DNA of 64,000 bases from Akkermansia muciniphila (GTDB lineage: Bacteria > Verrucomicrobiota > Verrucomicrobiia > Limisphaerales > BJHT01), in contig CAMAUZ010000019.1 of assembly GCA_945861535.1 (NCBI GenBank), forward strand, positions 1 through 64,000. Reading direction: 5' to 3'. Of this stretch, positions 1,331-54,209 are shown in pieces. The translations under genes and the position numbers were made by a program. The notes beneath the pieces are model-generated. The model was given only the letters and a program-made list of their open reading frames with translations. It had not been told where the DNA came from and ran no database searches. How positions within the stretch are numbered: position 1 is the stretch's first letter; every line of letters begins with the position of its first letter.

Positions 1331-1409
1331 TTGTTCGCGATGAAATCCCTGCCCGCAGCGACGGCTTCGGTTCATGCCGGTTCTGAGCGTGACCGGCTAA
1401 TTTCCGGCC

Positions 1410-1617
1410 ATGAGCAGCCTCGTTGAGATTGAAAAAGCCATCGAGGAGTTGCCCACGCCGCAGGTGGACGAGTTGGCTTGATGGCTGGCTGGAGAAGCAT
1501 CGCGTCAGGCGGGCCACGTCGCCGCCGGTGGAAAACTGGCTGCAACGTGCGCGCGGGGTGGCCCGTCCGGGCGAGACTACGGCGAAGGTAATGGCGCTTA
1601 CCCGTGGTGACGGATGA
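1410..1617 (+). pseudogene. Antitoxin gene of a vapBC-like pair, frameshifted
   Basis: The ATG at 1410 opens a reading frame beginning MSSLVEIEKAIEELP, which resembles small antitoxins placed just upstream of PIN toxins. It stops at 1479-1481 after 23 codons. The expected continuation (W-L-E-K-H-R-V-R-R and onward to T-R-G-D) is present in another frame up to a stop at 1615-1617, so a frameshift lies near 1475-1485. The second half ends in an ATGA overlap with the start of a toxin remnant at 1614. The frameshift is read directly; the family name is inferred from sequence style and context. Confidence 0.65.
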
Positions 1618-1953
1618 TTCTTTTCGATAGGGCGCAGCTCAGTTTCTTGCACGCGGCTTGGCGTCCGCGCCAGCCGGGTGGGGCAGGCATCCCTGCCTGC
1701 CAGTGGGCGGGGCATCCCTGCCCCGGGTTCCCGGTTCCGCGGGGGTGCTCGGCCAGGGAAACGGGCGGCAGGGATGCCGCCCGAACTGGCAGGCAGGGAT
1801 GCCTGCCCCACTCCGCCCGCGCGCCTGCCGCCGCAGGTTGCCTCGCGCACACCACCCGTGCCTGCCGACGGTTGCAGGAAACTGAGATGCGCCCTTTTCG
1901 ATACCAACATCTTGCTGGACATCGCGGCACCAGCCGTGAGGAGATGGTCCTGA
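1614..1953 (+). pseudogene. VapC-type PIN toxin remnant split by a MITE-like insertion
   Basis: The ATG at 1614 encodes M-I-L-F-D and is then interrupted at 1630 by a 265-bp inverted-repeat element. After the element the host sequence TTTTCGATA is duplicated (1895-1903) and the frame resumes as L-F-D-T-N-I-L-L-D, the N-terminal acidic motif of PIN ribonucleases. The frame ends at 1951-1953, so most of the PIN domain, including the later acidic residues, is absent. The gene is therefore dead twice over, by insertion and by loss of its 3' part. Removing the element and one copy of the duplication restores a continuous start, which is strong evidence for insertion. Confidence 0.75.
1630..1894. 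mobile_element. MITE-like element, copy 1 (265 bp, 9-bp target duplication)
   Basis: The terminal inverted repeats are about 22 bp, with the left end beginning GGGCGCAGCTCAGTTTCTTG and the right end its near-perfect reverse complement. The nine bases TTTTCGATA occur immediately outside both ends (1621-1629 and 1895-1903). The interior is itself strongly self-complementary, with several GGCAGGCATCC-type inverted motifs. No significant coding sequence is inside, so it must be moved by a transposase encoded elsewhere. Related copies occur at 20962, 31655, 46454 and 53958, with a solo end at 43330. Confidence 0.85.
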
Positions 1954-20961: not shown

Positions 20962-21226
20962 GGACGCATCTCAGTTTCCTGCAACCTTCGGCAGGCACGG
21001 GTGCCGTGCTCGCGGAAACCTGCGACGGCACGCGCGCGGGTGTGGTGGGGCAGGCATCCTTGCCTGCCAGTTCGGGCGGCATCCCTGCCGCCCGTTTCCA
21101 TGGCCGAGCACCCCCGCGGAACTGGGAACACGGGGCAGGGATGCCCCGCCAACTGGCAGGCAAGGATGCCTGCCCCACCCGGCTGGCGCGGCCGCCAAGC
21201 CGCGGGCAAGAAACTGAGCTGCGCCC
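20962..21226. mobile_element. MITE-like element, copy 2 (265 bp, 9-bp target duplication)
   Basis: The terminal repeats match copy 1 (left GGACGCATCTCAGTTTCCTG; right end the complement, ending GAGCTGCGCCC). The length equals copy 1 exactly by my count. The nine flanking bases are GGGCTGACA on the left (20953-20961) and GCGCTGACA on the right (21227-21235), an 8/9 match that supports a target duplication. It lies in the shared upstream region of the divergent hpf and radical SAM genes, where it may affect transcription. No coding sequence is inside. Confidence 0.85.
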
Positions 21227-46453: not shown

Positions 46454-46693
46454 AGGCGCGTCTCAGTTTCCTGCAACCTTCGGCGGGCACGGGTGGCGTG
46501 CGCGAGGAAACCTGCGACGGCACGCGCGCGGGCGGGGTGGGGCAGGCATCCCTGCCGCCCGTTTCCATGGCCAAGCACCCCCGCGGAACCGGGAACACGG
46601 GGCAGGGATGCCCCGCCATCTGGCAGGCAAGGATGCCTGCCCCACCCGGCTGGCGCGGACGCCAAGCCGCGGGCAAGAAACTGAGATGCGCCC
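46454..46693. mobile_element. MITE-like element, copy 3 (240 bp)
   Basis: The ends match the family (left AGGCGCGTCTCAGTTTCCTG; right GGGCAAGAAACTGAGATGCG then CCC). The interior follows copy 2 closely but lacks about 25 bases between two GGCATCC motifs, explaining the length of 240 instead of 265. No clear target duplication is visible. It lies between divergent kinase and aldehyde dehydrogenase genes. Confidence 0.8.
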
Positions 46694-53957: not shown

Positions 53958-54209
53958 GGGCGCATCTCAGTTTCTTGCAATGCGAACGGGCGGCTGCGGT
54001 GCAGCGTCGCCGGACTGGCGCAACGGACGCGTTCTCGCTCGCCCCGTCATTCTCCCGTTGAGAGGGAGAATTTTCGGCCGCGCTCGGCGGAGCGGAAGCG
54101 TTCGGATTGGCGCAGAGCGAGCGAACCGGCTCCTACTCCCCGCGGGAGGGGGGGTGAGTGAGAACGGAGACGAATTGCCAACCAAGGTGCAAGAAGCTGC
54201 GCTGCGCCC
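53958..54209. mobile_element. MITE-like element, variant copy with a different interior (252 bp)
   Basis: The ends belong to the family (left GGGCGCATCTCAGTTTCTTG; right GCAAGAAGCTGCGCTGCGCC then C), but the interior lacks the GGCAGGCATCC motifs and carries other hairpins, such as CTCCCGTTGAGAGGGAG. The flanking nine bases (CCTTCGTGC and CTTTGTTCC) match at only five positions, so any target duplication has decayed. No gene is seen in 53792-54278. Confidence 0.7.

Follow-up and report, generated by a model that had tools for sequence, protein, structure and literature searches.

Several elements of the ISKra4 group insert upstream of sigma-A promoters, with the promoter 13–17 bp from the element end, and those with ends forming near-perfect inverted repeats can have the promoter on either side (Guerillot et al. 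2014, PMC3942029). In the Mutator superfamily, duplications of 8 or 9 bp are formed and circular intermediates have been documented (PMC3942029). The host list given in the same study for the ISKra4 elements names no Verrucomicrobia, and MITEs fall outside its treatment. Also the TnGBS/ISLre2 elements (p-MULT 3) keep a constant distance when they insert upstream of sigma-A promoters, the -35 there lying 15–17 bp away (PMC3942029). Among bacterial MITEs, MITEAba12 of Acinetobacter makes a 9-bp duplication like the element described here, but it has other ends and another size and is derived from another IS (PMC6382973). The likewise hairpin-forming QMITE2 of Coxiella burnetii, with duplications of 7–9 bp and ends of 23–29 bp (PMC10969869), differs in that its host lineage is unrelated. 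The literature search returned nothing joining ISKra4 with Verrucomicrobia, and the works treating both ISKra4 and MITEs concern, to judge from titles and abstracts, other elements.

The MITE studied here lies close to the left end of the window, by which we mean the whole 64-kb stretch of DNA that was analysed. Its family is very probably mobilised in trans by a DDE transposase of the ISKra4 family (p-MULT 4, Mutator superfamily) and inserted preferentially upstream of sigma-70-like promoters. The likeness to the ISKra4 family comprises a transposase scoring above the NF033572 cut-off, inverted ends of 22 bp, duplications of 9 bp and the preference for inserting upstream of sigma-A promoters, with the promoter on either side of the element. 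The distance differs, as the -35 is here 27 bp from the element end while 13–17 bp has been reported (PMC3942029), the comparison becoming 18 versus 13–17 bp if the earlier distances were counted past the duplication. The fixed distance is shared also with TnGBS/ISLre2, but compared with ISLre2 the autonomous elements found here reach only 78 bits against a cut-off of 200, and either end may face the promoter. The window element itself is a real and well-supported MITE of a known superfamily and ordinary as a class; what is notable is the assignment of a helper and the precision, to the base, of the promoter register.

Structure, copies and interior of the MITE

The sequence TTTTCGATA occurs exactly twice in the window, at 1621–1629 and 1895–1903 (plus strand), as the left and right copies of a 9-bp target site duplication enclosing 265 bp. 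The enclosed element (1630–1894, plus strand) is 95.1% identical to the family consensus. Its terminal inverted repeats, GGGCGCAGCTCAGTTTCTTGCA on the left (1630–1651, plus strand) and GGGCGCATCTCAGTTTCCTGCA on the right (1873–1894, minus strand), are imperfect, matching at 20 of the 22 first positions, and each of them has one mismatch relative to the IS end GGGCGCATCTCAGTTTCTTGCA described below. A 265-bp element with approximately 22-bp terminal inverted repeats and a perfect 9-bp target duplication had been reported in the first-pass annotation, and both its coordinates and its ends agreed with our analysis. The small size, the absence of coding capacity, the 22-bp ends, the target duplication and the presence in multiple copies are together the features of a MITE.

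The BLAST search of the element's own genome with the whole element gave 364 candidates, and many of the best 40, which were scored, were full length with identities of 85–95%. The 17-bp end had 214 genome-wide matches with at most two mismatches, while the reversed pattern had none, and in the window it was found 11 times with at most three mismatches (1.1 expected). The mean pairwise divergence of the 265-bp type was 9.5% (24 copies), and other size classes (155–460 bp) have only the ends in common with it. Further copies in the window include a second full copy at 20962–21226 (minus strand; duplication 8/9), a third, diverged copy at 46454–46693 (minus strand; no recognisable duplication) and a fourth, representing a subfamily, at 53958–54209 (plus strand; duplication 5/9).

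At least 37 distinct copies bear target duplications. The flanks of 36 distinct copies agreed at 68% of positions in the 9-bp register and at about 30% at every other length tested, and 22 of the 36 copies matched in at least seven of the nine duplication positions, compared with 0.32 in shuffled pairings. Since the flanks agree at 9 bp alone, the staggered cut of the family is 9 bp.

The interior forms a hairpin with its left arm, containing GGCAGGGATGCC-type palindromes, at 1675–1722 and its right arm at 1767–1815 (both plus strand), and folding of the element strand gave z = -10.4 in relation to 200 shuffles. Column conservation within the hairpin (1675–1815 of the window and the corresponding parts of other copies) was about 97–99%, versus about 92% in the ends; either selection or gene conversion between the arms could account for this. 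In the window copy, one hairpin pair is changed on both sides, from T-A to C-G.

The element could also be viewed as an extragenic structured repeat that is retained because of a function in regulation or as an RNA, for example as a terminator or a processing hairpin, and is mobile only incidentally. The better conservation of the hairpin columns, the both-side changes in three hairpin pairs (window copy included) and the location of the copies between genes would all agree with this. However, the ends, the duplications and the copies at unrelated sites fit transposition, and in other genomes the same ends surround unrelated interiors. The covariation term was also unfavourable (+1.25), giving no support to the hairpin being selected for a role as RNA. 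We consider such a role quite improbable and treat the element as a transposed MITE.

Palindromes of the GGCAGGGATGCC type, similar to those of the MITE interior, were detected also in the genomes G013, G018, G010 and G024, of which G013 and G024 have them without the MITE ends. The MITE interior may therefore be a captured independent repeat family.

Matching insertion sequences and the source of the transposase

The 22-bp end was present in 74 of the 320 genomes of the order, and a collection scan with it gave records mostly titled Verrucomicrobia. The matching IS found in related genomes is 1473–1500 bp long and has one ORF of 473–482 aa. In three genomes (G211, G063 and G096) its ends were identical to the family-type MITE end at all 22 positions. 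Perfect 9-bp duplications were found at four loci (L222, L224, L226 and L227), those flanking the IS including TGCGGCACA in L153/L222 and AACCTGATC in L216/L224. The transposases scored 233.5, 209.7 and 208.5 bits against the NF033572 ISKra4 model of NCBIfam, the curated cut-off of which is 205 bits. The 9-bp duplications and the inverted ends, which fall within the 18–39 bp of the definition in PMC3942029, likewise place the IS in the ISKra4 family.

An internally deleted IS of 1059 bp with both ends kept (L164) represents an intermediate step. More distant transposases (53–59% identity) had diverged ends, such as GGGCGCAGATCA, and 9-bp duplications that were kept where readable; ends and transposase thus diverge together. 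The MITE has only the terminal 22–23 bp in common with the IS, and given the unrelated interiors it is no plain deletion product of the known IS.

The search for this IS transposase gave no match at E 10 in the window's own genome assembly (96.6% complete), and the ISKra4 model found there only a weak remnant (C4:80231) without these ends. It follows that the MITEs either have been left stranded or depend on a copy that the assembly lacks. Because the host assembly has no copy of this transposase, mobilisation in trans is what we infer. The first-pass annotation had placed the transposase outside the window and pointed to the rest of the genome as the place where an IS with these ends and 9-bp duplications might be found. 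The separate source is supported, but the IS with the same ends and 9-bp duplications came from related genomes and not from the own assembly.

A RAYT-like ORF (REP-associated tyrosine transposase) lies 750 bp upstream of the MITE at 181–867, amid palindromic repeats, and the palindromic interior of the MITE is as a REP/BIME-type origin through HUH single-strand transposition would have it. To our knowledge, HUH transposases make no target duplications, unlike the present family with its 9-bp duplications. In addition, the MITE ends are unlike the GGAACTCCAAACTC-type repeats beside the RAYT-like gene, and the IS with identical ends encodes a DDE transposase and not a RAYT. Mobilisation by the nearby RAYT is thus extremely improbable, and assignment to the REP/RAYT elements, which have hairpin ends and no target duplication, was ruled out by the 9-bp duplications and the ISKra4 IS; the ISKra4-family transposase is retained as the helper.

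The RAYT-like gene (plus strand) scored 70.9 bits against NF047646, just under the cut-off of 80. Around it, over positions 1–1340, there are many palindromic repeats of the types GGAACTCCAAACTC and CCGCGTAAACGCGG, which are probably REP/BIME arrays of this gene.

Four ISKra4-like matches in a genome of the same genus (G001; 29–40% identity) were rejected, as they belong to other elements. One ISKra4-like element of this genome (L220, 1221–2951; G001:C51) has other ends, GGGTGTGAGACAAAATTC, matching at 19 of 20 positions, and no matching ends were found for its remaining ISKra4-like matches. Another candidate, an end pair 1327 bp apart (L075), enclosed no transposase.

The same ends are present in high copy also elsewhere in the order: in G151 (175 end matches), G098 (129), G150 (53) and G073 (44). 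Most of these assemblies have no close transposase, G073 having four matches. The high copy numbers in these genomes are independent amplifications of different interiors.

Register of insertion relative to promoters

Aligned flanks of the duplication-bearing copies had TTG at offset 27 and TAnnnT around 50–55. Counted from the element end, the -35 TTG starts at exactly 27 bp, and counted from the outer edge of the duplication at 18 bp. In 200 flanks from other genomes, T was present at offset 27 in 53% (p = 8e-24), and TTG was found at this offset 45 times, compared with 3.9 at other offsets. The corresponding numbers for the own genome were 32 and 2.0. TAnnnT at a spacing of 16–18 bp accompanied 14 of the 45 and 8 of the 32 TTGs, versus 4 of 171 and 1 of 97 when TTGs elsewhere were used as controls. 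A sigma-70-like promoter at offset 27 was detected in 19 of the 37 duplication-bearing elements, never on both sides, the mean for other offsets being 0.64. Also the autonomous copy in L153 has the same register (TTGTCG and TAATCT separated by 17 bp). Insertion upstream of sigma-A promoters, a trait of a subset of the ISKra4 family, was thus found here, but at 27 bp. At single-base resolution, the two independent data sets show that promoter-directed insertion is inherited by the MITE family.

The genes beyond the promoter point outward. Outward coding frames prevailed at 34:1 and 41:6 on the promoter-side flanks and at 49:21 and 80:38 on the other flanks. Gene direction was scored by codon usage in this test, an earlier version based on the longest ORF having been uninformative owing to the length of GC-rich antisense frames.

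Insertions within genes are under-represented, and the promoter register might therefore be a by-product of selection, in-gene insertions having been purged, instead of target choice. Purging cannot, however, make a single-base peak at 27 with the neighbouring offsets at background: the promoter counts at offsets around 27 were 0, 1, 2, 19, 1, 0 and 0. We find selection as the source of the register very improbable and favour target choice by the transposase.

No clear promoter at offset 27 is present in about half of the copies. The window copy is one of them, with GGTAAG and TCGCGG at this offset, and it is therefore among the less typical insertions.

In the mechanism that we propose, the transposase would recognise the 22-bp end GGGCGCATCTCAGTTTCTTGCA and pair both ends, after which the ends would be joined to the target with 9-bp staggered cuts just upstream of promoters. 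The most likely reason for the fixed register would be contact of the transposase with promoter-bound RNA polymerase or with a feature of the promoter DNA. The element possibly passes through a copy-out circular intermediate. The 9-bp duplication had been taken in the first-pass annotation as proof of transposition by cut-and-paste or a similar mechanism, but it shows staggered strand transfer only; cut-and-paste is not proven, since circular intermediates are documented in the superfamily and copying would equally agree with the high copy number.

It is possible, although we put this forward only tentatively, that a Verrucomicrobiota-wide ISKra4-type system places high-copy MITEs at a promoter-anchored 27-bp register, approximately one helical turn beyond the 15–17 bp known from promoter-targeting elements of the Mutator type. 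If this were true, the transposase would dock in a new geometry on RNA polymerase bound to the promoter, and the family could be used for a genome-wide promoter read-out in uncultured bacteria. Through the helper assignment, an orphan MITE is linked to a transposase of which its own genome has no copy. Promoter-directed insertion is a natural explanation for the accumulation of hundreds of ends with little harm, and the family offers many natural insertion sites for testing how Mutator-type transposases find promoters.

The vapBC site

A vapB-type antitoxin remnant lies outside the element at 1410–1617 (plus strand), and the 5' remnant of vapC (PIN; 1614–1926, plus strand) is split by the element, with about 14 PIN-like codons in all and the body missing. 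A same-genus vapB homologue aligned to window positions 1407–1618 with a net frame change near 1481–1484. Beyond the right end of the element, no more than about 10 PIN-like residues (FDTNILLDIA) were found, and the body of the approximately 140-aa protein is absent from the next 150 bp. An intact pair in a related genome (G035) consists of an antitoxin of 67 aa and, overlapping with it, a PIN protein of 142 aa (PF01850, E 1.4e-7), confirming the vapBC identity of the genes at the site. This homologue has the VapBC arrangement of a PIN toxin after an overlapping antitoxin, of which the window keeps the start only. The vapBC pair carries at least three lesions.

The frameshift of the paired antitoxin and the PIN-like start rejoined across the element, both reported earlier from the window alone, were borne out by comparison with the homologues. 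The claim that the element kills vapC stood as regards the interruption of the frame, a vapC-like one that the element entered at its start, beside the frameshifted antitoxin. Killing by the element cannot be shown, as only about 14 codons survive. With the vapC body absent, the pair has been broken by other events too, and together with the frameshift this means that inactivation is not creditable to the element alone.

A dated order of events had also been proposed, but a single genome does not allow the antitoxin frameshift, the loss of the vapC body and the insertion to be put in sequence. According to the proposed order, vapBC was intact until the insertion inactivated it, and the remainder was lost through later decay; the perfect duplication of the window copy (9/9) and the intact homologue in a related genome would fit this. 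The frameshift and the missing body could, however, predate the insertion, the dead pair then having been a neutral landing site, and we regard the proposed order as unlikely. An orthologous empty site was not found in G001 and three relatives from the order, where only MITE copies and a vapB homologue matched.

Also the same-genus vapC homologue in G001 (L261, 496–960, minus strand; G001:C61) is frameshifted, in its second half, and decay of such vapBC loci is therefore not unique to the window.
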